Shown here: piece by piece, positions 25,232 to 62,880 of the stretch | How positions within the stretch are numbered: the stretch's first letter is position 1 | How the letters are laid out: each line of letters opens with the position of its first letter | Source of the DNA: Sinohyriopsis cumingii | Taxonomy: Eukaryota; Mollusca; Bivalvia; Unionida; Unionidae | Length of the DNA stretch: 64,000 bases | Direction: 5' to 3' | NCBI GenBank assembly: GCA_028554795.2 | Contig: CM068830.1 | Span: 109,195,214-109,259,213, forward strand | Position numbers and translations under genes: made by a program | The notes under the pieces: generated by a model | The model's database searches: none | The model's input: the letters and a program-made list of their open reading frames with translations, nothing else | Told to the model about the DNA's origin: nothing

Positions 25232-25677
<446 letters not shown>

Positions 25678-28072: not shown

Positions 28073-29155
28073 TCACTTCTTTTTATAGTCGATGACTTGC
28101 GAAGCGTCGATCCAAGAATCAAAACTGGGTGGATATCCTTTCCAACGTACTTTGACTTCTTTGACACGTCGTTTGCCCACTTTACGGGTTCTGCGTTCGA
28201 GAATGCTTTCGATGTCGTACACGTCGTCTTCGTTTTTGGTGACACGCTGTAACTCGGGCAAATAAAACGTTCCTTTGAGCACTTCTCCGTTCATGTCTTC
28301 CAATTTATAGACGGCAGGATGACGGCCATGCACTCGTCCAGTGACACGAAACAATTCGATCGTCCAGTTAGGTAAGTAACCTTTGTCGAAAGTGCGTTTG
28401 GTTTTGCCAATGCGCACCCAATCTCCTACGGCAAACTCTCCACTTTTCTTGGGGACAGCTCTCGTCGGGGACGTACCAAGCAGGCGCTCAAACACCAACA
28501 CTTCGTTCTCGGGAGTCACTTCTTGCGGGGCACGTCCGATGCTTCGATGATAAGATTGGTTGTACGCTTGCACCGGGGGCGGTAAGATGTCGATGTACTT
28601 CAGAGTGTGGTGATGCGTAAAATATTTCCACATGCGTTCTTTCAAAGTGCGTTGAAAACGTTCCACGATGCTGGCTTTGGTTTCGGGATTCTCGGTGGTA
28701 AAAAAATGAATGTCACGTTTCTTTAATTATTTTTGGAAAGCTTGGTTCAGAAATTCGGTTCCTTTGTCCGTTTGCCATCGAAGAGGGTGACGACCGCTTT
28801 GTTTCAACACCCGTTGCAGGGCTCGCACTAACTCGCTGCTCGATTTGGAAGTCAAGGGCACGACCCAGGCAAATTTGGAAAAGACGTCGATGACACAAAA
28901 CAAATATTTGTAGCCACGATTGTAGCTGGCCAAATGAGAGACATCGGCTAAATCGGCTTGCCATTGATGATCGATGCCTTCCACTCGGGTGCGACTTCTG
29001 GAAAACTTGCGTCGAATGGGTTTGTGTAAAGTGTAGGTAGCTTGTTCTTGTAACCATCGTTGCACTTGAGGTAAACGGAGACTTTTCAGTCGAGTTTTGG
29101 CAGCACGATACAATTTTTGAACTCCTGCGTAACCTGCAGGATGCGAGGGATCGTA
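28073..29155 (-). pseudogene. INT: Adintovirus integrase with chromodomain, two in-frame stops
   Basis: Retrovirus-like DDE integrase that joins viral DNA to the host genome. Order: DPSHPAGYAGVQKLYRAAK, YTLHKPIRRKF, catalytic Asp in DHQWQADLADVSHL, second Asp in WQTDKGTEF, and Glu in KASIVERFQRTLK. An SH3-like part follows (AVGDWVRIGKTK) and a C-terminal chromodomain with YDIESILE, VKVRWKGYP and SFDSWI. TAA at 28,727-28,729 falls between the second Asp and the Glu, and another TAA at 29,156-29,158 precedes the first recognisable motif, so no ATG start remains. The His/Cys zinc-binding N-terminus is not visible. Chromodomains bind methylated histone tails in other integrases and may steer insertion. 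Confidence 0.9.
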
Positions 29156-29213: not shown

Positions 29214-29855
29214 TTAATAAGGCACCCACTCTTGGAGGATGCTACTCTTTTTCTCTTGGGGTATTTTCTTGGATTGCAATGCTTTCCGTGTGCGACCGGC
29301 AATAGGTGTTGAAGAGGAGGATGTATGAGCGGAGGATATCGGTTCTTGTTTCACTTCTGTCTTCACTTCTGTCTTCACGTTCTTTTTCTCTTGTGATGAA
29401 GAAGGGGTGGCCATCATCTTTATAATCCATCCAATTCTGGAGGTAGGTGGTGTTGTTAACTTGCGTACTTTTTCTGGTGGAGTTTGAAACCCTTCTTCTT
29501 CTTCTCCTTTTTCTGTCTTGGTCACTGGCAGTGGTGGTACTGGTACTGGTACTGGTACTGGTGATGGTGCTGCACTTTTCAACAAGGTCTTAAAATCTTT
29601 CAAAGTGGGTAGAGCTGTTTCGTCTAAAGGTTTCTGGTGAAAGAGTTGCAGTCGTTGCAAGAGTTGACCGTACTTTTGCGATTTTTCTGTTTCGGACAAA
29701 TCTTGGCGATCCATCAAGGACTGCAATTCGTGTTGTAACTGGGACATCTCGCTCAAATGGGGATTGGGAGGTAAATGCGGGGTGCGTTGTTCTTGCCACC
29801 GATGGTATTCCATCCATCGTTTGTAAGGCACTAAAGCTAGTTTTCGTCCTTCCAT
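29214..29855 (-). CDS. Adintovirus conserved protein, helical N-terminus, Pro/Lys-rich tail
   Basis: Intact 213-codon frame. The N-terminus KLALVPYKRWMEY, then LSEMSQLQHELQSLMDR, DLSETEKSQKYGQLLQRLQ resembles an uncharacterised protein present in many Polintons: short basic start, helical body. The rest is low-complexity: a PVPVPVPVPPLP stretch, Glu run, and VKTEVKTEVKQEP with SUMO-like KxE motifs. A TATA-like GATAAAAAGG at 29,899-29,907 lies 44 bases upstream of the ATG. Function unknown; the acidic-proline and KxE features suggest a nuclear or virion-associated role, which is inference. Confidence 0.65.
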   Translation of the reverse strand: MEGRKLALVPYKRWMEYHRWQEQRTPHLPPNPHLSEMSQLQHELQSLMDRQDLSETEKSQKYGQLLQRLQLFHQKPLDETALPTLKDFKTLLKSAAPSPVPVPVPVPPLPVTKTEKGEEEEGFQTPPEKVRKLTTPPTSRIGWIIKMMATPSSSQEKKNVKTEVKTEVKQEPISSAHTSSSSTPIAGRTRKALQSKKIPQEKKSSILQEWVPY

Positions 29856-29903
29856 GGGGTTGTCAGGGGTCGATTCCGAGATCTTGGGACTTCCGAGGCC
29901 TTT

Positions 29904-31311: not shown

Positions 31312-32001
31312 TTAAGTCGAAGACGGAGACGTGTACAGGACAGGCCCTCCGTCTTGGCACCAGTGGTGAAACAAGTGGGTACGAAATCGCAAATCCTCGG
31401 GGGTCGTAGGTTTCAAATCGACGAGTAAATCGGCGTGTGGCGTTTGAGTGGCATCGTCGTACGCCTGAGTCAGCCAAGGTGTTCCTAACTGTTTGGCTAA
31501 GACTTGCACTTCCGATTTATCTCGAGGGCTTTTAAACAAGACCACGTAATGCGCATTGAGACTGATGGTGCGATATGCTTTACTTTGTTGAAACAAATTT
31601 AGGGTGATGTAAACGACACTGGCATTACGGTGATGCCCTTTGCGCGTGAACCACAGTTTAATTTCTTCTTCGTCTTCTCCTAACACGTCGTCAAAAATGT
31701 CTTCTTTAGGAATGCCTTCCACAAACACGATGGAATCGCATTGACTTTCTCGCAAGAGGCTGTACGCCGATTGCCACTCTTTGCAACACCACACGATCCT
31801 CTGAGGTAGCCGATCGATCAAATGATGTTTATGTTCGATCAAACGTTTGACGAATTCGGTTTTGCCTGAACCGCTAGGTCCTGCAATGAGCATGTTAAAA
31901 GGATGGCGAAGATACAAAGCCTCCCAACTGGCACGATCTAAGTGTTCGTCGATGACTTTGACAGTAGAGGAAGAGGGAGCAGAGACAGCAGAGGTAGCCA
32001 T
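31312..32001 (-). CDS. ATP: Adintovirus genome-packaging ATPase (FtsK/A32-like)
   Basis: Pumps viral DNA into the preformed capsid. Walker A is AGPSGSGKTEF, Walker B is the IFDDVL segment, and the following conserved block has FTRKGHHRNASVVYITLNLFQQ, RTISLNAHYVVLFKSPRDK and LLVDLKPTTPEDLRFRT. Length (229 residues) fits the family. The frame appears complete; the Gln usual in the YITQN motif is Leu here. I place the start at 32,001, not 32,043, because TATATAAAC at 32,047-32,055 is only about 45 bases above it and would leave the farther ATG outside the transcript. Confidence 0.88.
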   Translation of the reverse strand: MATSAVSAPSSSTVKVIDEHLDRASWEALYLRHPFNMLIAGPSGSGKTEFVKRLIEHKHHLIDRLPQRIVWCCKEWQSAYSLLRESQCDSIVFVEGIPKEDIFDDVLGEDEEEIKLWFTRKGHHRNASVVYITLNLFQQSKAYRTISLNAHYVVLFKSPRDKSEVQVLAKQLGTPWLTQAYDDATQTPHADLLVDLKPTTPEDLRFRTHLFHHWCQDGGPVLYTSPSST

Positions 32002-32084
32002 AGGGTGATAAATGTCACTTGTGACACGAAAACAACAAGACAAGAGTTTATATACTTTTTTTCAGAACACGTTTATTGAATGTT

Positions 32085-32459
32085 TCAAACATGAATACGA
32101 AAGACAAAAATACATAAAAGCCAAAGGCTTAAGTACAACAATAAAAGGCACATGATAACTATGAACGTGGAATAAACACAAGTGTCTGTACAACAATCAC
32201 ATGTTTTGGGTAATGTTCTAACCAGTTCTATAGTAGGCGGTAAGGTCACAAAAGTGTCCTCCCGAAAGGGTCTTTCAGGCCTGTCCACGACAGTCCTGTC
32301 CTGGGTGACGGGTTCTTCTGGCACCGTCACTAACACGGGTTGAAAAGTAACTTTTTTCCTTGAACAACTCTCGTGCATACTGGGCCACTTCTTGGGTCCA
32401 AGCCTCAAAATCCCATTCTTTCCAGGCACGGACATCTGTCCAATGGGGATGTAAGTCAC
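32085..32459 (-). CDS. Small membrane protein, C-terminal anchor
   Basis: The frame ends in a Cys-rich stretch (CDCCTDTCVY) followed by about 27 hydrophobic residues (FIVIMCLLLLYLSLWLLCIF) and a short basic tail, so it is probably tail-anchored or type II. The upstream part is hydrophilic with VPEEPVTQDRTVV. The likely start is an internal ATG at about 32,378 (MHESCSRKK), because the part above it overlaps the neighbouring frame. I do not recognise a family. Confidence 0.5.
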   Translation of the reverse strand: MTYIPIGQMSVPGKNGILRLGPKKWPSMHESCSRKKVTFQPVLVTVPEEPVTQDRTVVDRPERPFREDTFVTLPPTIELVRTLPKTCDCCTDTCVYSTFIVIMCLLLLYLSLWLLCIFVFRIHV

Positions 32460-32598
32460 AAGCTACACACACATCGTCATACACGTCTTGGGTAGCTAAA
32501 AGTTGACGAATCTTTTTTTCCTGTTGAGGTCGAGAAGCATCCATATGAAAACGCAAGGCTTTGAGCAAAAGGAGTTTTTCGTGACCATTTAAGGCCAT
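32275..32598 (-). CDS. Unknown adintovirus protein (107 residues)
   Basis: The frame contains GHEKLLLLKALRFHMD, KKIRQLLATQDVYDDVCVAC and WKEWDFEAWTQEVAQY. It overlaps the 3' end of the frame at 32,477-32,803 in another phase. Either there are two overlapping genes, or one gene has a frameshift near 32,590-32,600, since the helical character carries on smoothly from one frame to the next. No known domain. Confidence 0.45.
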   Translation of the reverse strand: MALNGHEKLLLLKALRFHMDASRPQQEKKIRQLLATQDVYDDVCVACDLHPHWTDVRAWKEWDFEAWTQEVAQYARELFKEKSYFSTRVSDGARRTRHPGQDCRGQA

Positions 32599-32803: not shown

Positions 32804-33266
32804 AAGCCGTGGCATGGATTCCTGTTTTAGTACTATCTTTTTTTCGGAAGCAATACACGTACATTCTACCCAGACATCTTCGTTCTCCAGAAGGAAATCT
32901 AGAATACTGTAACCTACAGTTCAAACTTCGATTAGAAGTTTTCTCTTCCACTAAGTAGATTCCATGTAACATATGTTGGTAATCCTTTAACTCGTCTTCC
33001 TCAATGCGTTGCTCTAGGTAAATCTCGAAGTAACCAAAATGATGAACATTTCGTTGATTCACTAACTCACTAACAAGGTCTGACCACTGAAACAATTTCT
33101 GACGAATCAGTCCTCTTATACCATTCAGGTACCAGTGGTTAAAGATCTGGTGACGTAACGGATGCAATTGTTCTTTACGTTTGACTTGTATTTTGACCAG
33201 CTCTCGGTAAATCCTTTCTCTCAACTCCTCAGGCAAGCCCAAAATGTTCTCTTGTAAAGTATCCAT
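32787..33266 (-). CDS. F-box-like protein, tandem copy 1
   Basis: A 159-residue protein. Residues 1-30 (MDTLQENILGL, PEELRERIYRELVKIQ) match the pattern of an F-box: Leu-Pro-x-Glu-Leu then alternating hydrophobic positions, the segment that binds Skp1. Next come HPLRHQIFNHWYLNGIRGLI and a C-terminal region of unknown fold ending in YVYCFRKK. It is full-length relative to copy 3 (33,514-33,969). The ATG at 33,266 aligns with the starts of both paralogues; an upstream ATG at 33,344 lies inside copy 2. F-box identity is pattern-based and not certain. Confidence 0.6.
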   Translation of the reverse strand: MDTLQENILGLPEELRERIYRELVKIQVKRKEQLHPLRHQIFNHWYLNGIRGLIRQKLFQWSDLVSELVNQRNVHHFGYFEIYLEQRIEEDELKDYQHMLHGIYLVEEKTSNRSLNCRLQYSRFPSGERRCLGRMYVYCFRKKDSTKTGIHATAYVTSD

Positions 33267-33501
33267 ACGTATATACACTGTTTTTGGAATCCTTGGGTGG
33301 TGGCCAATAGCCTCGTTTACCTTTGTGCCTGATGTAATATCCACTCATAATCAGTCTTCTTATACTTTGGAACAGAGCATAATTTAAAAACGGTTCAATA
33401 ACTTTGCGTTTGCGTTTCACTTGTATTTTGATCAGTTCTCGGTAAATGCGTTCTCTCAACTCCACAGGCAAAGCACGAATGTTCTCTAGCAAAGTATCCA
33501 T
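33229..33501 (-). CDS. F-box-like protein, tandem copy 2 (truncated)
   Basis: The first ~30 residues (MDTLLENIRALPVEL, RERIYRELIKIQVKRKRK) are nearly identical to the other two copies. The body then differs (FLNYALFQSIRRLIMSGYYI) and the frame stops after 90 residues, overlapping the start of copy 1 by 38 bases. It is either a short form or a copy cut down by recombination between the repeated 5' ends. Confidence 0.55.
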   Translation of the reverse strand: MDTLLENIRALPVELRERIYRELIKIQVKRKRKVIEPFLNYALFQSIRRLIMSGYYIRHKGKRGYWPPPKDSKNSVYTYGYFTREHFGLA

Positions 33502-33513
33502 GAATAGCCCATA

Positions 33514-33969
33514 CTAAATCCTCTTTGGTCTGACACAAGACATGTACTCTTTGCACAGAAATGGTTTTAATTCATTGTCGAATCTAAATCGTTTAGTTAC
33601 TAATTTACACGTTACAATTCGTTCAGAAGTTTCCTCTTTCACCAAGTAGACATTGTGTACAAGATGTTGGTAATTCGTTAACTCTTCCTCTGGAATTCGA
33701 TGCAGTACGTTCACAATGTAGTAGATAGAATCGTCAATACCAAACCATTCCTTTTTAAAGCCAAGGGTTCGTTGATCAATGTCTGTCCAATGGAACACTT
33801 TCAACTCAATCAGTCCTTGTATAGCATTCAGGTACCAGTGGTTCAAACACCGGTGACGTAACGGATGCAATTGTTCTTTACGTTTCACTTGTATTTTGAC
33901 CAGTTCTCGGTAAATGCGTTCTCTCAACTCCACAGGCAAAGCACGAATGTTCTCTTGTAAAGTATCCAT
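33514..33969 (-). CDS. F-box-like protein, tandem copy 3
   Basis: A 151-residue protein starting MDTLQENIRALPVELRERIY, followed by HRCLNHWYLNAIQGLIELKV and a C-terminal part with YQHLVHNVYLVKEETSER that aligns along its whole length with copy 1 (YQHMLHGIYLVEEKTSNR). Identity is highest in the first 45 residues, as expected if that part contacts a fixed partner such as Skp1 while the rest contacts changing targets. It lies between the BIR gene and copy 2 in the same orientation. Confidence 0.6.
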   Translation of the reverse strand: MDTLQENIRALPVELRERIYRELVKIQVKRKEQLHPLRHRCLNHWYLNAIQGLIELKVFHWTDIDQRTLGFKKEWFGIDDSIYYIVNVLHRIPEEELTNYQHLVHNVYLVKEETSERIVTCKLVTKRFRFDNELKPFLCKEYMSCVRPKRI

Positions 33970-33991
33970 GAACAGATTATGGTAAGTTACT

Positions 33992-34630
33992 TCAATGTCT
34001 CGGTCCCACTAAGGGTAAGTAATGACAATTCGGTGACCATCGAGCATGTTCTACGTAGGCCGAATCTTGCGGTTCCCAGTGGTGAAGTGACACACCGCAA
34101 CTGAAGCACTTGACTTTATCTCCTTCTCCCAAGTAGAAAAATCCGGCTCTGGCTAATTCTTCGGGGGTCGGTCCTCCCAGATACTTAAACCATTTTCCTT
34201 TGAACGATTGAAGACGATTTTCAAAGTCGCAGTATTCCGACAAACGCACAGGGAACGAATATTCGTCTTTCACAGGTTCGTTTCGATGAGGGTTGAGTGA
34301 CATGGGCAGGAGTTTGCTCATTGCTGGATGACATCCGTAGTGGGGTAGACGTGAAGGTGAACATTCCCCTTTAAAACGAAACCCAGTAAAATGTCCAAGA
34401 GGACGAGCGGCATCACTTTCGCATCCCTCTGGTTTGACACGCACAGCATCCCTTTCCATGATAGGGGTAGTGACACTAAAGTTCCCATGATGCTTTACGG
34501 AATCGCTAAGGCCACAGCGTACAGCATCGTACCCATCGCAAGGCTCACAATCGCATTCCACTTCAGAAGCCTCACACTTGAATTGTGCCTTTATAAACAA
34601 CTTGTTTTGTGTTTCTCTGAAAGTATTCAT
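33992..34630 (-). CDS. BIR-domain (IAP-like) protein
   Basis: A 212-residue protein with one C-terminal BIR domain at about residues 128-207. Motifs: RLSEYCDFENRLQSFKGKW, LARAGFFYLGEGDKVKCFSC and, after WEPQDSAYVEHARWSPNC, the Zn ligands in the order C-x2-C-x16-H-x6-C. BIR proteins of baculoviruses and molluscan herpesviruses block host cell death; an anti-apoptotic role is the simplest inference. There is no RING domain. The N-terminal 127 residues match nothing I recognise. A TATA box, TATATAAAAAGG at 34,684-34,695, lies 54 bases above the ATG. The frame is intact, unlike the neighbouring polymerase. Confidence 0.85.
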   Translation of the reverse strand: MNTFRETQNKLFIKAQFKCEASEVECDCEPCDGYDAVRCGLSDSVKHHGNFSVTTPIMERDAVRVKPEGCESDAARPLGHFTGFRFKGECSPSRLPHYGCHPAMSKLLPMSLNPHRNEPVKDEYSFPVRLSEYCDFENRLQSFKGKWFKYLGGPTPEELARAGFFYLGEGDKVKCFSCGVSLHHWEPQDSAYVEHARWSPNCHYLPLVGPRH

Positions 34631-34662
34631 CTTGTTCGCTTGGTCTTGGTAGTCACAATGAA

Positions 34663-37600
34663 CTATCGATCTTGCCTAGGGTTCCTTTTTATATACAGAC
34701 CAATACCGACGTGTCCATACGGTAAGGTGAAATGATTGGGAAGTCGCACTCGCTTCTGGTACACGATTTGATAGACTTTTTCCAAGGGCCGACTGACGAT
34801 GTGGTGAGTGGGTAAACGTACAATCTTGATCGGTTGATAGGTGGTCACTTTAAAGTTTCCATCCTCTCCCGATTGCAAGGCTTCTTTCAATACCCCAAAG
34901 TTGACCACACGACTGGTACGATAATTCAGAGTCAGTCCTTTCACTTTGCACGTCGTGTGCACTTCTCCTTGTTTGTCCCGGTATTTGTAGCCGTAATTTT
35001 TGGGACCGCCACTGACGAAACTTAGAATCTTGTCGTCGGGATGCTCGTCTGTCCAGGCTCCTAAACGGTCTCCTTCGATGTCAGGGTGCTGTTGACTCTG
35101 GTGATGGATGTAAATGCAACTGTCCGTGTCAAAGTACAGGACGCGTTCCCCTAACAGTTCTAAAGCTTCGTACAATTTTAAGCGAGCATGGGCTGTCACG
35201 TAAGCCGCAATGATGACATTTCCAAAAGGGTCGTCGTGTACAAAGTCTAGATCTTCTTCGTAATTGACCAAGATCAAATCCTCGCGAACGACGTCCACGT
35301 GTTTCATGTATTTGGTTTTGACGTGAATCATCTGGAAGTAGCGGGAAGGTTCTGTCAAATATTATGTCTTGGGCAAACACTGTCGTTGTGCCATTTTTCC
35401 CCACAAGCAATTTAACGTCACTTTGGCAAACGATCGCCTGCCTTCGTTTTTCTCGATGTGGTCTAAAGAGATGCCTTCTTGTTCATAGTATTTCTCTTTG
35501 AATTGTGTTTGGTCTTCGGGAGTGTGACACCAGGAAGGATAGCCGCTGGCTTCTTGTTTCAGTTTTAAAAAGGCATTCACGTAGTCAGCGAAAATGCCTT
35601 TCTGACTGGGATCACCCTTGTGGTATTGTTGTGTCTTGGGAAAGTGGCAATTTCGTACACTTCTAACAGTTGGTATCCCATGTCCAGAGCTTTCAACAAT
35701 TCTACGCCGACCCACCTCCCCGTCAAGGCACGTTCTTCCTGGGTGTGCTGACAAGGTTGGTCTTGGTTGCACGTTTCGGCACAAGTACGGCACAATGGAA
35801 ACATCAGTTTGCCTTGACAATGGTGAGGTAAGACGGGATGGTACAAGTCCGTGGGCGGCAAAATTTTACACTTGATCAAGCCTTCGTATTGTCGAATGTT
35901 TTTCAGGTCGATGTGTTCCGTTAACAATTGCGGGTGCCCTACAGGAAAGCTACAATATTTGCACACGTAGGGATACAGCGAACACACGTCCAAGTATTTG
36001 ATTTCTTCTCCTTTCTCTTCGTCGGCTTGGTACAGAAAACAGGTGGCATTGGTCCTTCCTCCGTACAAACTATCCCTCGAGTTCAGCGGGTCCATGAACT
36101 GGTAAGTTTCCACAAGGCGTTTAAACTCGGGATCGGTTTTCATACGGTGATCGTACTCGTGTTCCCACATTTCCACCACTTGGTATCCTTGCTGTTCTAA
36201 CTTCAGGCGTCGCTGACAAGTGTCCTGGTTCAAGTCTTCCATGGTTCGTTGAAAAAACTGATTTTTAGTGCCACGGTCAGGGTAACAGACGGGATATCCG
36301 TGAAATAAGCAACCGTTAAACTCGTACACGATCTTGGGGTTTTCTAAGTCCCAGCCATCTACTGAATACGTTCCGATGGTCTTTTCACCCCCTCCGTTGC
36401 GAGCATGCTGAATCCACTTGTCTTCCTTGTCGCACAAGTAATGTAACCAACGTAGGGCTTTGACCGAGTATTGACGTTTGACAAAGTGGGTCGTTTGAGG
36501 GCTATGACAGCCACGGTGTTTTCAGGCATGAATCGTTGTCGATACACTAAGGAACACGCTTTGGCAATGGTGCAAGTTTCTTTCAAATGATCGACCCCCC
36601 CGTGTTCCATGAACAGTTCTCGAAATTTTCCACAGCAACGCCGTAAAATGTCCACGTCGGAACGACAATACTTTAGCATTTCTTCCTGAAAGTCGAAAGG
36701 GTCCGAGGCGTGAGCCTGGTACCAAGCGTAGAAAGTTTCTCGTTGTTCGGTACGCATGTTGTCCGGGTCGTAAGAGTGAGCCTCAGGTAAATGGGGTAGA
36801 ACGGCGTGTTGATTGGCTTCCGTATTGAAAAAGTGTGGAAAGTACCCTTTAGCCATTTCTGTCATTCCAAACGTTTTAGGCATTCGGCTCAAAGGCATGG
36901 CCAAATAGCTCATCTAATCTTTAAACTGTACTTGTCCCACTTGCATGAAAATGATTTTGGCTCCGTTCAAAGTCACTTTAGGACGCTCGGTGCCTTGTTC
37001 CGTATAGTATCTCAAAAGAAACTGTCCATCGTATCCGGAGACATTGTGAGCCATCACTGTGGCATGACGATGACAATCTCCGTAACGTTCGATGTCCTCT
37101 TGGCTCCACGTCTTGTCGATGGGGTCTAAGACCCATTGGGCAAAATCGGCTAACGTGTTCGGTCCCCGAAAGATTTTTTCACGCCTTCCGGGAATCTTGC
37201 TGCAGTGAGGGCAATGACTGAAGATAGGTTCTTGAATGAACTTCTCGCACGCTCGATGAGCCACGCAGAAATTAGGAATGTGAATGCCGGTCTCTTGCAT
37301 GCATTCGAAATCGAAAAAGATGAAATTGCCTTTCTTCTTGTGACCGTCCTCTTTCTCTGGTGGGGGTTTGGTATTTTTGCACGTAGCATTGGTTTTCCAA
37401 GTCCACGATGTGGTGACAAATGTGACATTTTTTCTTTCATCGACATACGTGTGCCTTGGCATTATTGGTAAGTATGCCTTGTCCACACGTAGTGCACAAT
37501 CTCAGCAGTTGACAAGCACATTTCTTCTGTGAACCTTGTGTTTTCAAATGTTGTTGGTAACAGGTAGGGCTGACAAAAGTGCGCAGACAAGTTGAACAAG

Positions 37601-38860: not shown

Positions 38861-39321
38861 ATGGAAGAGACTAGCCAAATCGAACGTTTCGTCAGAGCTT
38901 TGCGAGGGGTCATTAGAAAATTCTCTTCAGACCAGCCGACGGACTACTCTCCTTCCTTTCGAGATAAAAGTCAAGATACTTGCTATATCTGTCAGAAGAA
39001 AGGGCATTGGTCTTCAGAGTGTCCAGACCGTCAAAAAAGAAAAAAAAAAGGGCTAAAAAAGAAAAAAGTAAAGATACCTGTTATTATTGTCAAGAAAAAG
39101 GACATTGGTCTCCAGATTGCCCAAAAAAGAAACAAGATGAGTCAGAAGAAAAGAGGAATTCTTCAGAAGAAGAGAGGGATTCTTCAGAGGAAAAAAAGAA
39201 AGAAAGAAGACAATTCTATTTACAAGAGGCAAAGAAACAGGAGAAGAAAAGAAGAAGGGAAGAAAATGAGGAGAAAGAAGAGGAAAAGACGGTGAAGAAA
39301 TTCAAAAAACAGAGAGGCTAA
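38861..39321 (+). pseudogene. Zinc-knuckle (two CCHC) protein, frameshifted in an A-run
   Basis: The first frame (from ATG 38,861) has a helical start, RFVRALRGVIRKF, then knuckle 1, CYICQKKGHWSSEC. The second knuckle, CYYCQEKGHWSPDC, and a Lys/Glu/Ser-rich tail lie in the next frame (38,980-39,321). The change must occur between 39,028 and 39,090, where runs of A lie (GTCAAAAAAGAAAAAAAAAG). The knuckles are C-x2-C-x4-H-x4-C, as in retroviral nucleocapsid and RNA-binding proteins. Whether the shift is slippage-based expression, a mutation or an assembly error cannot be told here. The family is not part of the usual adintovirus gene set known to me. Confidence 0.7.
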
Positions 39322-39329
39322 ACAAGGAA

Positions 39330-39600
39330 AAAGAAGAAGTCAATGAACTTTATATTAAAGTGTTATGTTGTGAATTGTGAATTGGATTGTAACAATGGAT
39401 AAAAGAATAAATTAATTATATAAGGTAAGTGTCTTTGAGTTATGATTTTAAAATAAGAACGTACACTCACGCACTCATACAAAGACACGTACTATAGGGG
39501 TAAAATGGTTTTTTTTTTTTGAGTTATGGGCAAATTGAAAGGCTATCTCTTTTCGAGAGAAGTGGGTGGCCCTGAAAAGGGCCTTTTTTGGTGTAGGGGT
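39330..39600. other. Non-coding spacer between convergent genes
   Basis: AT-rich DNA after the zinc-knuckle gene, with a possible AATAAATTAATT polyadenylation signal at about 39,407. The right part holds the histone-type 3' signal of the leftward gene (see the terminator entry). Confidence 0.5.
39545..39583 (-). terminator. Histone-type 3' end: stem-loop plus downstream purine element (leftward gene)
   Basis: On the minus strand GGCCCTTTTCAGGGCC (39,568-39,583) forms a 6-bp stem and 4-nt loop and is followed by ACCCA, the sequence and flank of the animal replication-dependent histone mRNA stem-loop. Thirteen bases later is GAAAAGAGAT (39,545-39,554), like the purine-rich site that pairs with U7 snRNA. 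The stem starts 21 bases after the stop of the gene at 39,605. Confidence 0.8.
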
Positions 39601-39604
39601 GAGT

Positions 39605-40177
39605 TTAAGCAATCAGCTTTAACTGCCTTAAGCCTTTGCCACGGCCAAGGCCTACTTCTGGACTGCGTAATGTTGATGATGATTGGGTTGAAATCACTAA
39701 GGGTGGTACGGCAGGCTTAGTCACAGGGTTGACGTGTTTAGCTCGGGAAGGTCGTATTCTCTTCGGTCGTAATAAAGAAGTCTGATACATTTGTTTCAGA
39801 CTTCTTAACTCCGCTAAACTGTCCAACAGTACCGTGACCGTTTGATTTTCACCCTCTTGTTTCTTTGCTGCTACTTCTTCTTGCTGTTGTTGCTGTTGTT
39901 TTTTTCTTACCTCTTCTTCTTGCTGCTGCTGTAGGAGAAAAGCTTGTTCCGCTTCCTTTTGTCGTTGTATAAATTTCTCCAATTCTTCTTTCTGTCTCTG
40001 TCTAAAATTCTCCACTTGCGGTAATGAAGAAGATAACGAAGGTTCCGGAACAAATTCTTGCGAGGTAAGAAAATCCACAAAATCCCAATTTACCTCTTCT
40101 GAAAGTAAGTCCGGGTTCCCTTGGGCAGTCTCCCCTGCTGGTGCACCCCAATGAATCGTTTTCTGAGTTTCCGTCAT
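39605..40177 (-). CDS. Gln-rich coiled-coil protein with histone-type 3' end
   Basis: Intact 190-codon frame. Acidic, hydrophobic N-terminus (SEEVNWDFVDFLTSQEFVPEP), then about 70 residues of predicted helix with RQRQKEELEKFIQRQKEAEQ and a QQQQQQ run, a short LLDSLAELRSLKQMYQTS helix, and a basic C-terminus (LLRPKRIRPSRAKH). The N-terminal acidic-aromatic part could be a transcription activation segment; this is inference. No histone fold or LxCxE motif is seen. It is transcribed away from the gene at 40,397 and ends in a histone-like stem-loop. No homologue recognised. Confidence 0.65.
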   Translation of the reverse strand: MTETQKTIHWGAPAGETAQGNPDLLSEEVNWDFVDFLTSQEFVPEPSLSSSLPQVENFRQRQKEELEKFIQRQKEAEQAFLLQQQQEEEVRKKQQQQQQEEVAAKKQEGENQTVTVLLDSLAELRSLKQMYQTSLLRPKRIRPSRAKHVNPVTKPAVPPLVISTQSSSTLRSPEVGLGRGKGLRQLKLIA

Positions 40178-40396
40178 GTTGAATCACTGTCGCATAGATT
40201 GACTGTACACAAGCGCTAGCGAATCTATATAGACCATGTGACGTCACAGACTGCTCTCTTCGGATTGGATGCGGGCTAACTGAATTTTGTAACGCGTGTT
40301 CGGATTGGTGAATGAACTCAATCCGTTTCAATCCTTCCTCTACCTATAAATAAGCGCAGTTCACTGCATTGATTCACCTGTTCTCGTCGCTTCACG
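40178..40396. promoter_or_regulatory. Bidirectional promoter with CRE, two CCAAT boxes and two TATA boxes
   Basis: TATAAATA at 40,345-40,352 serves the rightward gene, TATATAG (minus strand, 40,225-40,231) the leftward gene. Between them lie a perfect CRE, TGACGTCA (40,239-40,246), and two CGGATTGG blocks with ATTGG at 40,264 and 40,304 (CCAAT on the minus strand). Paired CCAAT boxes and CRE-like sites between divergent genes are typical of histone H2A-H2B intergenic promoters. Confidence 0.7.
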
Positions 40397-40627
40397 ATGT
40401 GGACCACAGTCGAATCATCCACCAATGTGTCTTCCATGATGTTTAGGACGGACATGCTCATGTATGTCCGGTCCAAGTGGATCGTTGTCGACAAGTCAGA
40501 CACCAGTCTGTGGATACGAAGAGTGTATGTAGAAAGACAAGGTCGCCTCAAGAGGACACTGATTTATGGCCCTCGAGTAAGACGCAGCTTGAGGACAAGA
40601 AGATGCCGCAGATGCCCTTTATGTTAA
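40397..40627 (+). CDS. Small basic Cys-ended protein with histone-type 3' end
   Basis: Intact 76-codon frame. The first half is Ser/Thr/Met-rich (TTVESSTNVSSMMFRTD), the middle alternates hydrophobic and charged residues (MYVRSKWIVVDKSDTSLWI), and the end is strongly basic with a Cys pair (RRSLRTRRCRRCPLC). It is small enough to be a DNA-binding or virion core peptide, but it does not resemble H2A, H2B, H3, H4 or H1. Its ATG lies 44 bases after a TATA box and the stop is followed after 24 bases by a histone-type stem-loop. Confidence 0.6.
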   Translation: MWTTVESSTNVSSMMFRTDMLMYVRSKWIVVDKSDTSLWIRRVYVERQGRLKRTLIYGPRVRRSLRTRRCRRCPLC

Positions 40628-40651
40628 TGGATACATTAACATAAACCCAAA

Positions 40652-40690
40652 GGCCCTTTTCAGGGCCACCCATATTTCTCGAAAAGAGAA
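40652..40690 (+). terminator. Histone-type 3' end: stem-loop plus downstream purine element (rightward gene)
   Basis: CCCAAA precedes GGCCCTTTTCAGGGCC (40,652-40,667) and ACCCA follows, the arrangement of the metazoan histone mRNA 3' stem-loop. GAAAAGAGAA starts 13 bases later (40,681), the same spacing as at 39,545. The ~65-bp regions around the two signals are inverted copies of each other. Confidence 0.8.
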
Positions 40691-40756
40691 TGACTTTCAA
40701 TTGCCTAGCACATTTTTTTTAAATTTAGAAGAAAAAAAATCCCATGTTAAATTCCG

Positions 40757-41012
40757 CTTGTCCCTAAAGTAGTTTTTTTCTCCCATGTTAAATTCCCCTT
40801 GTCCCTAGACAGACCCAAACTCTATTCCCCATGTTAAATTCCCCTTGTCCCTAGACAGACCCAAACTCTATTCCCCATGTAATGCTAATTCCCCTTGTCC
40901 CTAGAGTGACCCACGATTTTTCTCCATGTTAAATTTACATAGTCCCCAGAGTGACCCAGGGGTGTCTGTAATGCTAATTCCCATTGTCCCTGGGGTGACC
41001 CACTTCACTACT

Positions 41013-41013
<1 letters not shown>
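40757..41013 (-). repeat. Adintovirus right terminal inverted repeat
   Basis: Inverted copy of the left end, finishing GGTGACCCACTTCACTACTT at 41,013. It holds two of the ~46-bp units. It is directly followed by (TA)n and satellite units. Confidence 0.93.
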
Positions 41014-41665
<652 letters not shown>

Positions 41666-53399: not shown

Positions 53400-54350
53400 T
53401 ATGAGCAGATATATTATTCTCCGCGAGGATTTTGGCGAGGAAAATCAGCGATCGCCAAACTCGCTAAAGCCGCCAAAGTAAAATCATCCGTCGCTGAATC
53501 GTGGTTATCAAAACAGGCAATTTGGCAAATATATCTTCCTCCGCCTAAAAAAATACCGTACGCAAGTTTCACCGTCAGTGTCCCTAATGAGGTCCATCAG
53601 GCGGATCTAATGTTTCTTCCTCATGATACCGTTGACGGAGTCACATACAAATACGTTTTGACCATCGTCGATATCGCTAGTAGGTATAAAGAAGCAGAGC
53701 CATTATAGAATAAAACAGCAACAGAAATTGCCAAGGCATTTAACGAAATTTATTCACGATTCCCGTTAACATGGCCGAATCTTCTCCAGGTTGATCCAGG
53801 TCGAGAATTTCTTGGTGCGGTTACTTCATTGATGAAAAAGAATAATGTCAAAATCCGTCGCGGTATTGTAGGTGTTCATCACAATCAAGCTATCGTCGAA
53901 AGATTCAACAAAACGCTCGCAGAACGATTATTTGGATACCAATACGCGCGTGAATTTATTCAAGATAATCGATCTCACGATTGGGTATCAAGATTGCCTC
54001 ATGTGATTAACGCGTTAAATAACGAGACAACTCGAACAATAGCAATGAAACCTGCAATTGCAATCACAAAATCGAATATACCCCTAAAGCGAAATTCCAC
54101 AATTCAACCTGTGCTAGGTAGCGTCACAGTCAGATATTTGTATAAAGAAGGCGAGGCCGAAGGAGGCAGAAAAAGAGCAACCGACCCAACCTGGAGCGTC
54201 ACAACTCACAAAATATCCGCCGTAACAAGATCGTCAGGAAGACCAGCGATTTATATCCTAGATTCGTTAGCGCCACAACGCGGATTTACCAAAGAAGAAT
54301 TACAAATAGTACCCGAAGATACTCAACTACCGCCAGCGTCACTAATGTAG
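53400..54350 (+). pseudogene. INT: Integrase of the second virus, one in-frame stop and damaged start
   Basis: DDE integrase. The frame opens right after the PLA2 stop with QIYYSPRGFWRGKSAIAKLA, then QAIWQIYLPPPKKIP. The catalytic Asp is in VHQADLMFLPHD, the second in QVDPGREF, and Glu in NQAIVERFNKTLAERLFG. The C-terminal part has VRYLYKEGEAEGGRKRATDP and EELQIVPED. TAG at 53,706-53,708 lies in the loop after IASRYKEAEPL. No ATG is in frame before the conserved N-terminus; an ATG at 53,401 is out of frame by one base, so a one-base loss at the start codon is likely. The 3' end overlaps the PolB-helicase end by 28 bases (tail to tail). No chromodomain. Confidence 0.9.
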
Positions 54351-57310
54351 TTTACTCGAATTCGTCCTAGCTGAGATAATTTTCTTACTCTCGACACGGC
54401 CAAATATACCAAATTTGACCAAGAAATTCTATCATCGACGATCCAAACTTGGCCATCTACGGTCAATCCTTGCGACGAGTGTATCGTTGTTGCGTAACCT
54501 AATTTCCACGGTGATTTTTCTGCATTTAACGCTTCATTAATAAGGTTGATATCAACAAAGATAATATCGTTCAGGACCAAGTTTTTTTCCCTTCCGCATG
54601 GCAAAGTAACGCTGACATTTTGTCGTCGAGTATTAGCGGGCCTATAGCATAACGGTACCTGCAGCGTTGGAAATTTCTCACAATGCAGCTTGAATAACAT
54701 TTCCTGAATAATATCACGAATAATTTTTCTACTAGCAACGATCAGATGATCAGGACGCCACAAATTTAGAAAATCGCTCATCGGAGTCTCGTCGATTATT
54801 TTCCTCATGACGTCACATTGAATCTTGTTTGGTTGTAATCGAATTAATTTTTTAAACTCGGTCAACAAAATATCTGTCGATCTATAATCAGCGTCGATTT
54901 CCTCGTAATAGTCAACGAAACTTCTGAGCCATTCGTGAGGCGATTCACCATCGATAGGATTAGGTTGGCCATGATCGCCGCACATTATTACGGCGGTATT
55001 TTTCCCTCCCAGCCAAGCTAATATCGATTTTAATATATCTAAATTCACCGTGCAAATCTCGTCAAATATTATGATCTTGTTGATATATTTATCGCCCATG
55101 CGTGCCGAGTCCCATGATCCACCGCTGTATTTGAAATAGCTATGGTACGTGCAAGAATTAACACCGCGCTGCTTTATTTCTCGCGCTAATCTATGTGTCG
55201 GAGTCAATACGATCATATCGGAGTTCGCAAATAAGTTTATTACTCGCGTTGTTTTACCGCTACCTCCAGGCCCATTTAGGCAAACGAATTTACTGCGTGA
55301 AATTGGATCGAACGCAGATGCGGCCGCCGAAGATTCTCCAAATTTACCTTGATGAAATTCATCGCAATCTTCGACATCGGCGTCTTCACAATAATCTAGG
55401 ATATCCTCGTTTTTTATCCTCCAGGTTCCCCATGAGCTACCATCGGTGATTAAATTTTCCAACCTATCTTGGTATTTTTTATCGATATAAAACGAATCCG
55501 TCGCGACCCTTACTGCGATATCAGAAAATTTATTTATCATCGAGAGTAAATTTATACTTACATAGGCGAGCATCGACGACCGCAAATGCGTATATTGCGC
55601 TGATTCTCCGTCAAGGTAGCTAATCACGGTACCTAATTTTGCTCCATCAATGATACTATTCTCTCTGTTGCAAAATATTCCTCGTGATACCGTATCGGCG
55701 ATTATAAAATCCATCTCGGCGTCGATGATAAATAATCTAGCGTGTCGATGTTTGTGATCAACGGATCCACCTTGAGTAAATTTACCGATTATTTTTCTTC
55801 CTATATCTTTCGCGTTGTCACAGTCTGTCGGCAACCACACCTCGATCTGTTTTTTGTAAGATATAATCGCCTCACTCACCGTCAACGACACTAACATCGA
55901 CGAATCTAGCATATATCTCAATAACACCGTAGGAACCCAACGACGCTGGAAGAAATGCTTGCCGAACCAAATATAGCAGATTTTATGCAAATTTTCAGCA
56001 AACTCGAACGACGTAACACAAGCGAATCCGGTCATGACAAAATCAGGCAACGGTCCGTTAATTGCTACCCTTGTCATTTCGCTGGTAGGATGGCCGAATT
56101 TAGCAAAATAATCGGCACAATCGCCATATCCAAGGAAACTTCCAGGATAACACGCGCTCATGTCAACGGAGATCATATCTTCGAAATCGTACTTGGTATT
56201 CCACAAACCACCATGGCCATACTCGATACAGCTAAGTTGAATATCAGCGAGAAATTCGTTCCTTGTAGGCTTCCACGAGTTTTTCTCTCTAGCGGCGTGA
56301 GCGGCCACAGACGGAATTGTAAGGCAATTTGTCAGTAACTGATCGGGATTCGACGAATATTTCATCGCGAGTTTTCTCATCGACTCGTGTAATATTTCAC
56401 CCCTGTAAATATCGCCGCATGGCAGGATAAACTGATCGTATCTTTCCTCGCTCGAGAATAACCATATCGATACTGGATCAGATGCGCTTAATTTTTTGAT
56501 AAATCTGAACATATCATCGGAATTATTCTCCGCGAAATTCTCAACATCTACAGGATAAAATTTAACCACACGATCCCGCGGAAATATCATTACCGAATGC
56601 GACCACGCGTGGGAGTTATGATCGATAATCTCGATTGGCGCTCCTCCGGATCTGTACGGCGACGAGTATAATATTTCTCCCGATAACGTTTTCACCGTGA
56701 TTGGAAATTTAAGTTTTTTACTCAACGCAGCTACATCGTCCACCGATGCACCATCAGCGACAGTCTTCGCCCACGCATTAATTTTATCTAGCCTCAATTG
56801 AGTCAAACCAGATCCACGTCGAGCGTTTTTCATGTGTTCGATTACGCGCTCAGCCACGCAATTTATCATCGGTGATTCTTTCATCGCAGGTAGGTTTTTT
56901 ACTTCCGGATTGTTATTCAGCCGATAAATTCCATAAACAACAGCGCTGGCTGGATAGGATCTAGCATAATAAGGGCCATCGATTCCCAGTAACAATCCGG
57001 GTTTAGAATTTTTATCAAAAACAACGTTTTTCTTACCACCACGCACAGGATCTCGTTTATCGCGAATAATCCAAGTATCATCAGGCATTTGTGCGATAAA
57101 TTTTATTCCAAAAATAAATCGCTCTTCTTTGTGTTCGGTTTTTATATGCTCGATTATTTTCTTAGCTCGTTCCAGGTTCATCGTAGCATCGATAGAATTT
57201 GTTTTCCAAGTCGACCAAGTGTGAACAGCTCCATCATCGAAGAACTCTTTCTTGGCTCGATCAACCTCAGGAATAATATATTCTGCCTCATCAAGATCAA
57301 ATATATCCAT
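54323..57310 (-). CDS. Fused DNA polymerase B and SF1 helicase, intact (995 residues)
   Basis: Replicase of the second virus. Residues ~1-320 are unassigned. PolB motif A is ISVDMSACYPGSFLGYGD (about 388-405), motif B region is HLRSSMLAYVSINLL and motif C is RVATDSFYID (about 607-616), where the usual Asp-Thr-Asp is Ala-Thr-Asp. I see no clear Exo I, II or III motifs. From about residue 670 an SF1 helicase follows: Walker A NGPGGSGKTTR, TPTHRLAREIK, motif II IIFDEICTV, motif III MCGDHGQPNP, and motifs V/VI ATTIHSSQGLTVDG and LVYLAVSRVRKL, closest to Pif1/RecD-like proteins. The whole frame is open with no stop. It is the largest and best-kept gene in the window. It reads away from the Cys-rich gene, 30 bases apart. 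Confidence 0.9.
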   Translation of the reverse strand: MDIFDLDEAEYIIPEVDRAKKEFFDDGAVHTWSTWKTNSIDATMNLERAKKIIEHIKTEHKEERFIFGIKFIAQMPDDTWIIRDKRDPVRGGKKNVVFDKNSKPGLLLGIDGPYYARSYPASAVVYGIYRLNNNPEVKNLPAMKESPMINCVAERVIEHMKNARRGSGLTQLRLDKINAWAKTVADGASVDDVAALSKKLKFPITVKTLSGEILYSSPYRSGGAPIEIIDHNSHAWSHSVMIFPRDRVVKFYPVDVENFAENNSDDMFRFIKKLSASDPVSIWLFSSEERYDQFILPCGDIYRGEILHESMRKLAMKYSSNPDQLLTNCLTIPSVAAHAAREKNSWKPTRNEFLADIQLSCIEYGHGGLWNTKYDFEDMISVDMSACYPGSFLGYGDCADYFAKFGHPTSEMTRVAINGPLPDFVMTGFACVTSFEFAENLHKICYIWFGKHFFQRRWVPTVLLRYMLDSSMLVSLTVSEAIISYKKQIEVWLPTDCDNAKDIGRKIIGKFTQGGSVDHKHRHARLFIIDAEMDFIIADTVSRGIFCNRENSIIDGAKLGTVISYLDGESAQYTHLRSSMLAYVSINLLSMINKFSDIAVRVATDSFYIDKKYQDRLENLITDGSSWGTWRIKNEDILDYCEDADVEDCDEFHQGKFGESSAAASAFDPISRSKFVCLNGPGGSGKTTRVINLFANSDMIVLTPTHRLAREIKQRGVNSCTYHSYFKYSGGSWDSARMGDKYINKIIIFDEICTVNLDILKSILAWLGGKNTAVIMCGDHGQPNPIDGESPHEWLRSFVDYYEEIDADYRSTDILLTEFKKLIRLQPNKIQCDVMRKIIDETPMSDFLNLWRPDHLIVASRKIIRDIIQEMLFKLHCEKFPTLQVPLCYRPANTRRQNVSVTLPCGREKNLVLNDIIFVDINLINEALNAEKSPWKLGYATTIHSSQGLTVDGQVWIVDDRISWSNLVYLAVSRVRKLSQLGRIRVNYISDAGGS

Positions 57311-57340
57311 GATTATATTTTAGACATATGTTTAAATTAT

Positions 57341-57628
57341 ATGCATTGCAAATGGATACTAATCGGCTCAACAAATAATTGTGACAAATCTTGCAGAGGC
57401 GATTATTGCGGCGCTCACATACATGCGATTCGGCGTGGCAGTAAAGGACCACAGCGATGTTTAGTTTGTCAAGTTGGCACGCGAGGAAAAACTCGATTGT
57501 GTCTGGCTTGTGGAGGAAAAAATTATCGGGAATTGCGGCGGTATTATGAAAAAAGATCCTCGTCGGTCATAACATGCGAAGAAGATTATATTAATCGATT
57601 CAAAGCAAATAACGATTTAAACATATAG
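57341..57628 (+). CDS. Small Cys-rich (zinc-finger-like) protein
   Basis: Intact 95 codons. Cys/His pattern: NNCDKSCRGDYCGAHIHAI, then RCLVCQVGTRGKTRLCLACG, giving at least three Cys pairs and one His, followed by a basic helix (YRELRRYYEKR). Two zinc ions could be bound. Short proteins with the CxxH...G...CxxCG...CxxCG order recur beside replication genes in this viral group, to my recollection; the function is unknown. The ATG at 57,341 is the first one in frame after the divergent PolB start. Confidence 0.7.
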   Translation: MHCKWILIGSTNNCDKSCRGDYCGAHIHAIRRGSKGPQRCLVCQVGTRGKTRLCLACGGKNYRELRRYYEKRSSSVITCEEDYINRFKANNDLNI

Positions 57629-57638
57629 ATATTACTAT

Positions 57639-58202
57639 ATGAGTCTGAAATCAGCAATTCCAGAAACAACAATGACATGCGAGTTTAAATCTCACCCAAC
57701 GATCACTGGATACGAGGCGTCATCGGATGGTGTTGTCAGAAATACCAAAACGAAGAATCGGGTCGGTAGGGTTTGTAATTCAGGTTATCTTGTTTTTACC
57801 ATCAACAAAAGCAAAAAACAAAGATGCGCAAGTTATCTCAGTCATAAGTTTGTATTTGAATGTTTTCACGGACCAATAAAAGTCGGTATTGTTATTGACC
57901 ACATCGACGGAGATAAACTTAACAACAAACTGTTAAATCTTCGGGAGGTAACTCCGAGTGAAAATTCCAAATTTGGTAATACCGGTGGCGTATGGCGACC
58001 ATCTAAGGCAGTTAAATCAGTAAATCGAGAAACAAACGAGGAAATTATATTCACATCGATGAGTGCCGCTGCAAAATATTTTGATATTAATCCAGCATCG
58101 GTGCAACGTGCGACAGAAAAAATAATAAACGCGACATTCTCCTACCGATTTGGTACATGGTTCGAATTTTATTATGTTCCAATAATATCCGAAGAAAATT
58201 AA
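57639..58202 (+). CDS. HNH endonuclease with NUMOD4-like domain
   Basis: Intact 187 codons. The N-terminal HPTITGYEASSDGVVRNTKT matches NUMOD4, a DNA-binding part of homing-type nucleases. The HNH core is YLSHKFVFECFHGPIK, then IDHIDGDKLNNKLLNLREVT, with the catalytic His in IDHIDGD and Asn at the usual spacing. A C-terminal NUMOD1-like segment has FTSMSAAAKYFDINPASVQR. Such proteins cut specific DNA sites and can spread as selfish genes; here it is a free-standing gene, 10 bases after the Cys-rich gene, not an intron. Host or viral DNA cleavage is possible but not shown. Confidence 0.88.
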   Translation: MSLKSAIPETTMTCEFKSHPTITGYEASSDGVVRNTKTKNRVGRVCNSGYLVFTINKSKKQRCASYLSHKFVFECFHGPIKVGIVIDHIDGDKLNNKLLNLREVTPSENSKFGNTGGVWRPSKAVKSVNRETNEEIIFTSMSAAAKYFDINPASVQRATEKIINATFSYRFGTWFEFYYVPIISEEN

Positions 58203-58225
58203 TTAAAATTACAAATATAATATAA

Positions 58226-58600
58226 ATGAACGAGGAAAACGTAAATAACATCATCGAAGCCATCGAGGATCTGAAAAATAAAAATGTAAATTTATCTTCA
58301 GATTTGGACGCAGGTAAAATCCGGTCCGAGTTTGAAACGATCGTCCAAGGGAAACTCGAATACAGATACACGCTACCATCCGAATATAAGTTTATAAAGA
58401 AAATCCAGATTGCGATGTATCAATCGCTTGCAACTGTCAGCGATGATCAAATCGAGGATTTTGTTAAATTATCAACACTGGTAGAAAAAGTAAGGTCGAG
58501 TTTATCAGACGAATACGAGTCGAGAAAAATTACCAGCTCGCGCGTCAGGCAGCTAAAAAAGCTGGTCGATGAAAGTAAAATTAAAATCGAAGATTCCTAA
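58226..58600 (+). CDS. Helical protein of unknown function
   Basis: Intact 124 codons, largely charged and helical: NVNNIIEAIEDLKNKNVNL, GKIRSEFETIVQG, KFIKKIQIAMYQSLATV and RQLKKLVDESKIKI. No Cys clusters, membrane span or catalytic motif. It follows the HNH gene by 23 bases, so the three small genes form a rightward group. The 3' end is marked by a strong hairpin at 58,615. Confidence 0.6.
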   Translation: MNEENVNNIIEAIEDLKNKNVNLSSDLDAGKIRSEFETIVQGKLEYRYTLPSEYKFIKKIQIAMYQSLATVSDDQIEDFVKLSTLVEKVRSSLSDEYESRKITSSRVRQLKKLVDESKIKIEDS

Positions 58601-58614
58601 AATCGAAAGATTCT

Positions 58615-58658
58615 GAAGATTCTTGCCACAAAAAAAAAACAAAATTTCAAGAATCTTC
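58615..58658. terminator. Hairpin after the rightward small-gene group
   Basis: GAAGATTCTTG (58,615-58,625) and CAAGAATCTTC (58,648-58,658) form a perfect 11-bp inverted repeat around an A-rich 22-base loop, 15 bases after the stop at 58,600. Viral 3'-end hairpins of this type are known from giant viruses; whether it is used as a signal here is inference. Confidence 0.6.
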
Positions 58659-58667
58659 GATTCTAAT

Positions 58668-59090
58668 TTTTATTATTTTTTTTATTATTTTACTGAAATT
58701 GTGCAATTTTCTTAATTTTGACGGGTATTTACCCCACCAAAAACATAAAATTATATAAATTGCGCAATTTGACGGGTATTTACCCCAGCAGATTCACGAA
58801 ATTATATAAATTACTCGATTTGACGGGTATTTACCCCATCAAAAACATAAAATTACACAAATTTCTTAATTTCCCTGATTTTTATTATTTTTTTTTATTA
58901 TTTACTAAATTAATTTATTTACTGAAATTGTACAATTTTCTTAATTTTGACGGGTATTTACCCCAACAAAAACATAAAATTACACAAATTACTCAATTTG
59001 ACGGGTATTTACCCCAACAGATTTACGAAATTATATAAATTACTCAATTTGACGGGTATTTACCCCATCAAAATTAAGAAATTTACTAAT
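58668..59090. repeat. Six 51-bp spaced palindromes (GGGTATTTACCC) in two blocks of three
   Basis: The 12-bp palindrome-like GGGTATTTACCC, always preceded by GAC and followed by C, starts at 58,723, 58,774, 58,825, 58,952, 59,003 and 59,054. Within each block the spacing is exactly 51 bases. Each block is preceded by ACTGAAATTG and CAATTTTCTTAATTTTGAC. The array lies between convergent genes (58,600 and 59,150). Confidence 0.93.
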
Positions 59091-59149
59091 TTTGAAAAAT
59101 TTCCTGGTTTTTATTTATTTTTTTTGGCCATTTTTCTTTGGCGGAAAGA

Positions 59150-61145: not shown

Positions 61146-61161
61146 TTATTAGTTAGGTTAT

Positions 61162-62496: not shown

Positions 62497-62827
62497 GATA
62501 TTTATCTATGGCATATTCAAATACGATTCTATGACACGGACCGGATGATTTTGAAATTGCGTCGAGGACATCAATTGATTCTGGGCCGCATATCGGTGGA
62601 TCCATTAACGTCTGCGTTGGAAGTGTCGAATACCAAATTGGAATATTTAACTTTGACACGTAATTGACGAATTCTTTTGGTGGCGCTAGTCCGTACGAGT
62701 CAAAGTAAACAACTTCGCGAGGATTAATCGCGTAGGCGACCCAATGTGTGCCAGGACCGGTATTTGAATCGAGATTTATTATTCCTGTCTCGGTGGGGTT
62801 TGGTTTTTCTGGTAGTTGATCCCGCAT
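62489..62827 (-). CDS. PRO: Adenain-like cysteine protease
   Basis: Cuts capsid and core precursors during maturation. Catalytic His is in GPGTHWVAYAI, Asp in VVYFDSYGLAPPKEF, and Cys in PPICGPESIDVL, with the oxyanion Gln in LPTQTL. The ATG at 62,827 (MRDQLP) would leave out the conserved block just upstream in the same frame (FFRGVF), which continues open to about 62,955 over the end of the pVI-like gene without an ATG. The true start may thus be non-AUG or reached by frameshift from the upstream gene. The last four codons overlap the fibre gene. Confidence 0.88.
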   Translation of the reverse strand: MRDQLPEKPNPTETGIINLDSNTGPGTHWVAYAINPREVVYFDSYGLAPPKEFVNYVSKLNIPIWYSTLPTQTLMDPPICGPESIDVLDAISKSSGPCHRIVFEYAIDKYHG

Positions 62828-62880
62828 AAATACGCCTCTGAAAAACTTAATTTTTTTTTTCTTTGCTTCGTTGAATAAAT

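Follow-up and report, generated by a model that had tools for sequence, protein, structure and literature searches.

Histone-type 3' ends on accessory genes of an endogenous adintovirus-like element in the bivalve Sinohyriopsis cumingii

Introduction

Metazoan histone pre-mRNAs carry a bipartite 3' signal: A stem-loop is bound by SLBP, a histone downstream element (HDE) pairs with U7 snRNA, and CPSF73 cuts between the two (accessible part of PMC7026596). Here, we report signals of this type in a 64-kb stretch of DNA from Sinohyriopsis cumingii (hereafter the window, located on contig C7). They follow two divergent accessory genes, g190 (190 aa) and g76 (76 aa), at the right end of an adintovirus-like element that is bounded by inverted repeats. 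Stem, loop, a purine block at histone-like spacing, the shortness of the genes and the lack of a nearby AATAAA or ATTAAA resemble the metazoan histone 3' end (Rfam family RF00032, Histone3). In contrast to that system, the signals belong to non-histone genes of an integrating DNA virus, which are present in thousands of copies outside the histone clusters found. The CCAAA and ACCCA flanks of the stems match the histone consensus flanks. To our knowledge, histone-type 3' processing is regarded as nearly private to replication-dependent histone genes. We consider it highly likely that the accessory genes of this endogenous adintovirus/Maverick-like virus use the host's replication-dependent histone 3'-end pathway instead of polyadenylation.

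Viral use of cellular RNA 3'-end pathways is exemplified by the herpesvirus HSURs and PAN, non-coding RNAs with non-polyadenylated or protected ends. These ends are of the snRNA type or formed by a triple helix, whereas the signal described here is of the SLBP/U7 type. A Histone3 call with the same Rfam model was reported at 14.7 bits inside a SARS-CoV-2 coding region (accessible part of PMC7786107). This is far below the curated cut-off of 34 bits, in contrast to the 40.8 and 38.4 bits reached past the stop codons of g76 and g190. The Histoid gene of Xeno-class adomaviruses also links small animal DNA viruses, one of them with adintovirus-like virion genes, to histones; according to the accessible part of PMC11071296, it encodes a protein with remote histone similarity, whereas here the mRNA end alone is histone-type. 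The main text of this survey, which covers adintoviruses, contains no mention of 'stem-loop' or 'polyadenyl'. An earlier sequence-only reading of the window knew of no described adintovirus case. Likewise, no description of histone-type 3' ends in adintoviruses, Mavericks or viruses was found among the literature matches listed, in a coverage that lies mostly outside subscription journals.

A bipartite signal follows g190 and g76

The 16-nucleotide (nt) stem-loop GGCCCTTTTCAGGGCC, with a perfect stem of 6 bp and a 4-nt loop, occurs once behind each gene on the coding strand (Table 1), and these are its only two matches in the window at up to 3 mismatches. In 100 shuffles of the window, a mean of 0.14 matches was obtained and none of the shuffles reached two. 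The positions are those given in the sequence-only reading, which had also placed the stems 21 to 25 bases after the stop codons and 13 bases before a purine block. The measured stop-to-stem distances are 21 nt for g190 (stop 39605-39607) and 24 nt for g76 (stop 40625-40627), and the gap between stem and GAAAAGAGA is exactly 13 nt at both ends. All 46 positions of the Histone3 model are aligned at either end, and no other family exceeded its cut-off in the Rfam scan of the window.

Both genes have relatives. For the 190-aa protein, 20 homologues were found, some of them partial, which identifies g190 as a real gene. The g76 reading frame is intact in 38 copies, the window's counted, and third codon positions differ most from the window's g76 in 36 of the 37 other copies (the exception being L051). 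With the g76 protein of locus L054 as query, 2 homologues were detected; the window's own 76-aa protein as query yielded none. Neither gene encodes a histone: In line with the sequence-only reading, no Pfam family was found in either protein, neither in a scan at E 0.001 nor in a repeat at E 0.1. PDB profile searches with g76 gave no match. The sole weak match of g190, to mL100 (E 0.0012), was taken as coiled-coil noise, and a structure prediction of the 76-aa protein, with a predicted local distance difference test (pLDDT) value of 49.6, was too poor for use. The ratio of nonsynonymous to synonymous divergence (dN/dS) of g76, median 0.12, was not relied on because dS was saturated. Among the sampled copies, silent-site divergence is much higher for g76 than for g190, although the sets of intact copies of the two genes differ; it looks as if right-end modules had been exchanged between lineages.

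The viral blocks follow the rules of the host's histone genes

The histone genes of the host are arranged in tandem units of about 8.3 kb, as judged from the 150 of 662 candidates that were scored. Loci L039 and L040 hold all five histone types (H3, H4, H2B, H2A and H1) and L041 holds four, each ending in a histone stem. This stem is GGCCCTTTTTAGGGCC in H3 and H4, GGCCCTTTTAAGGGCC in H2A and GGTCCTTTTCAGGACC in H1, and that of H2B is identical to the viral one. A GAAAAG core follows the stem after 13 nt in H3, H4 and H2B and after 14 nt in H2A and H1 (read in L039). Thus, the comparison with host histone 3' ends reveals the same kind of stem, core and spacing in five histone genes and, together with the Rfam scores above cut-off, supports the bipartite histone-type signal proposed in the sequence-only reading.

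The identity with the H2B stem could indicate that the blocks are relics without viral function, which were acquired along with the ends of host histone genes or duplicated passively. Moreover, the 54-nt blocks of the g190 and g76 ends are 89% complementary to each other, so that one of the ends probably arose as a copy of the other. However, the ACCCA tail of the viral ends is present on none of the five host histone genes read. A nearby histone cluster as recent source, which the sequence-only reading had named, in combination with absence of the motif from every related virus, as a refuting outcome, is not supported: None of the histone matches among the 150 scored of 662 candidates lies on C7. 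Since the tail differs and no scored histone match lies on C7, the viral blocks obey the same rules as those of the host but are not recent copies of the histone genes read. The constancy of the signal on other viral genes and copies, described below, bears on the same question.

Five viral genes carry the signal in thousands of copies

The genome searched is eukaryotic and comprises 2.905 Gb in 1138 contigs. It contains 13,744 exact matches of GGCYCTTTTCAGRGCCACCCA (6746 and 6998 by strand) and 19,306 of the compensated form AGCCCTTTTCAGGGCTACCC (9548 and 9758), whereas the reversed patterns gave 0 matches each. Taken together, the genome has no fewer than 33,050 exact histone-type stem-loops of these two types. 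When 47 loci around stem-loops were fetched from contig C1 and searched with tblastn, 46 proved to hold one of five viral genes (L078 held none). These are g190, g76 and three further genes, X, Y and Z, all of which carry the signal in sense orientation 3' of their stop codon. In fuller copies, g190 and g76 are the two stem-loop genes of one end, and the other end has up to three (X, Y and Z); all of the latter were read in L044, L050 and L081. To examine the first 5.4 Mb of C1, 6 X- or g76-type places out of 37 were excluded beforehand, which left 31 places taken to be of the g190 type (25 confirmed by reading, 6 not fetched). In 28 of these 31, a Y/Z-type stem-loop is found on the same strand and the expected side, with 13.3-18.1 kb to the nearest one, compared to 3 of 31 on the opposite side. 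In L064 and L065, which extend from gene Z into the capsid region, Z's own end is the only Rfam match at E 0.01.

An inverted repeat could also act in DNA, as a replication, packaging or recombination signal, with its histone likeness being incidental. GC-rich palindromic stems can serve in this way, and the g76 and X blocks are located near the terminal repeats. However, Y and Z blocks are away from the termini, the ends read have sense orientation past a stop codon with the purine block downstream, and the host histone signals are matched including CCAAA and spacing. A role in DNA alone is therefore regarded as extremely unlikely.

Several observations concern the architecture of the family. 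This adintovirus/Maverick-like family has thousands of members in the genome, and in the inspected part of C1 many of them are nearly full-length. The gene beside the terminal repeat appears as a replaceable module: X of L044, L046, L050 and L081 is 51-59% identical to X of L003. The 3' block of these X genes is nevertheless almost the same as that of g76. In L067, an X-like gene with a stem-loop of its own is located beyond g76. In L050 (1200-3001, minus strand), GGATGTTTTCCTTCACGTC was seen by eye upstream of the start in each of X, Y and Z and is perhaps their common promoter element.

The stem-loop is conserved and compensated

The 3' ends of C1 loci and the window were read for g190 (42 ends), g76 (42), X (5), Y (4) and Z (3). 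Matches short of the protein's end and the X-like match in L067 were left out. As the loci had been drawn with an exact 21-mer present in 40 of 42 g190 and 5 of 5 X ends, conservation of these two groups is circular. By contrast, the search 21-mer is missing from every Y and Z end (7) and from 38 of the 42 g76 ends. Among these 38 fair g76 ends, the stem-loop is much less variable than the sequence on either side. Mean pairwise diversity amounts to 0.260 upstream, 0.274 downstream and 0.234 in the spacer; for the stem-loop, it is 0.039 (0.035 with all 42 ends). The corresponding values for CCAAA, the GAAAAG core and the ten-column HDE block are 0.000, 0.085 and 0.120, respectively. GAAAAG is found at 13 nt in all 42 g190 ends, 37 of 42 g76 ends, all X (5/5) and Y (4/4) ends and one of three Z ends.

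Among the 42 g76 stems, 32 are perfect, 5 more have all six pairs and 5 have one broken pair. In L068, the most diverged locus of the set (66% identity to the window's g76, 68% to its g190), the g76 stem GTCCCTTTTCAGGGAT keeps six pairs intact by one two-sided change and one G-U pair. Y and Z stems use AGCCC/GGGCT. When 19 distinct ends (14 viral and 5 host) were aligned, 94.7% of the cells paired, with two-sided changes at 3 of 6 stem pairs (2 from viral rows, 1 from host H1) versus 0-1 in slid controls. Shuffles reached the observed values in 1-7 of 500 cases, which yields no probability because the copies are related.

These data bear on the reading of the blocks as relics. Although some copies are broken, the stem-loop persists next to a variable spacer and variable flanks, stems are compensated and the signal is found on five different genes. 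Hence, we judge relics without viral function to be very improbable.

Relatives in other datasets also carry a recognisable form of the signal, which likewise speaks against the refuting outcome named above. P0011, a g190 homologue, continues beyond the normal C-terminus with WPISGPPTSLEKRYYVNCQFQ; when the 3' block of L068 is translated in this frame, RPFSGPPISLEKRYYFNCQ is obtained. In the g76 homologue P0022, the extension is KPFSGPLTLLENIYYVNCQ, where the stem region is recognisable, the first pair apparently broken and the purine block altered. We take both to be decayed copies. They show that the signal occurs beyond this dataset, although not necessarily beyond this virus, and their host may be the same species. 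In the viral contig collection, the stem-loop pattern had 0 matches, and no match of the penton candidate, of A1 (the alignment of the g190 homologues) or of one PolB piece was confirmed. Searching the genome contig collection with A1 confirmed none among 86 stretches, and a distant blastn search against phages gave no match.

A proposed route through the host SLBP/U7 pathway

Based on established knowledge of histone pre-mRNA, processing by the host is the most economical reading of these signals, and we regard SLBP/U7 processing of the viral mRNAs as very probable. SLBP would bind the viral stem-loop, and the GAAAAG block would be recognised by the U7 small nuclear ribonucleoprotein through base pairing. 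Cleavage of the pre-mRNA between both sites, a few nt past the stem, would yield short mRNAs that end in the stem-loop, lack a poly(A) tail and accumulate mainly in S phase. This suggests that part of the viral gene expression is coupled to host DNA replication. Coupling to S phase follows only if the host regulates SLBP and histone mRNA decay like better-known animals.

Several results weigh against this proposal. A search for host U7 with the pattern CTTTT-gap-AATTTGTCTAG returned 54 and 30 matches by comparison with 41 and 48 for the reversed control. Apart from the array described below, 14 of these 84 pattern matches were read, none of them convincing. The Rfam U7 model RF00066 gave no match among the 65 of 801,960 candidates that were scored; since no control genome responded either, this result carries no weight. 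Duplex energies with human U7 (sequence from the accessible part of PMC7026596) did not separate viral and host HDEs from background. Several diverged ends fall below the RF00032 cut-off or are not reported by Rfam. Finally, neither AATAAA nor ATTAAA occurs within 200 nt after g190 or g76 in the window, but the contrast is weak, since 14 of 17 other open reading frames of the element lack them, too; the remaining 3 are the zinc-knuckle gene, 29214-29903 and 32085-32462. A 2.6-kb tandem array on contig C10 (118.97-119.02 Mb) that contains the U7 Sm site AATTTGTCTAG was rejected as U7: Its 3' hairpin is weak, Rfam U7 was not matched at E 1, and its downstream sequence was found by reading to be common to L102, so that it is probably a repeat.

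Alternatively, the signal might serve SLBP-dependent translation or stability only, or coexist with poly(A) tails, without restriction to S phase. One Z copy has AATAAA about 65 nt past the stem, and the stem is under stronger constraint than the GAAAAG core. On the other hand, a U7-type block at nearly fixed spacing is needed only for 3' cleavage, and the lack of poly(A) signals behind g190 and g76 points in the same direction. We consider this alternative unlikely.

Use of the histone pathway by several unrelated viral genes would show that the bipartite signal can be transferred to non-histone genes and is selected for there. It would provide a testable route by which a DNA virus confines accessory proteins to replicating cells, and thousands of natural variants would be available to study the rules of SLBP and U7. 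A farther-reaching proposal is made tentatively and with some doubt: A set of at least five accessory genes at both genome ends may have moved from polyadenylation into the histone pathway and thus switch on with host DNA replication. The stem-loops counted above, where transcribed, might then suffice to compete with histone genes for SLBP and U7.

The element and its surroundings

The element shares PolB, an rve integrase with chromodomain, an FtsK-type ATPase and terminal inverted repeats with adintoviruses and Maverick-Polintons (Table 1). Together with the BIR match, the protein families support its assignment as adintovirus-like and bear out the viral setting assumed in the sequence-only reading. 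Adintoviruses are defined in the accessible part of PMC11071296 by an rve integrase with C-terminal chromodomain, a PolB with N-terminal OTU-like domain and a hexon recognisable by BLASTP. Here, rve (3.1e-13) and Chromo (7.5e-08) were matched in adjacent frames. No OTU family was found at E 0.1 in 7 PolB-region pieces scanned singly, a scan that remote OTU likeness would escape. Hexon, penton and protease candidates had no Pfam match and are labelled from reading only. The window copy is decayed, with PolB and integrase split across frames and the hexon candidate shortened beside the left repeat.

Table 1. Positions of the signals, genes and repeats of the element within the window
Feature	Coordinates	Strand	Basis or remark
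Left terminal inverted repeat	25294..25676	.	
Integrase region (rve, then chromodomain), two reading frames	28073..29155	-	Pfam
ATPase	31312..32061	-	FtsK_SpoIIIE over cut-off, Pox_A32 just below cut-off
BIR-domain gene	33992..34675	-	Pfam
PolB region, several frames	34663..37501	-	Pieces 35577-36437 and 36359-36913 match PF03175 over cut-off
Zinc-knuckle gene adjoining the pair	38861..39295	+	ATTAAA and AATAAA (39406) downstream
Purine block GAAAAGAGA, 13 nt past g190 stem	39546..39554	-	
Histone-type stem-loop 3' of g190	39568..39583	-	Rfam RF00032, 38.4 bits over 39588-39543
g190, 190-aa accessory gene	39605..40177	-	20 homologues, alignment A1
Divergent promoter region	40178..40396	.	Motif scan without chance control
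g76, 76-aa accessory gene	40397..40627	+	Open in 38 copies including the window's; third-position excess; homologues of L054 version
Histone-type stem-loop 3' of g76	40652..40667	+	Rfam RF00032, 40.8 bits over 40647-40692
Purine block GAAAAGAGA, HDE-like, 13 nt past g76 stem	40681..40689	+	
Right terminal inverted repeat	40762..41098	.	

Between g190 and g76, a motif scan without chance control found TATATA at 40226, TGACGTCA at 40239, ATTGG at 40264 and 40304 and TATAAA at 40345. We take TGACGTCA to be a cAMP response element (CRE) and ATTGG to be a reversed CCAAT. Further to the left (33174-33975), three related 99-nt stretches open neighbouring genes with MDTLQENIRALPVELRERIYREL or a near variant, gene starts that presumably resemble an F-box. 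A second virus-like cluster is located at 54323-63953. It encodes a 995-aa protein with an AAA domain like that of superfamily 1 (SF1) helicases, a 189-aa protein with a double-jelly-roll match below cut-off and a 444-aa protein that weakly matches Baculo_PEP_C.
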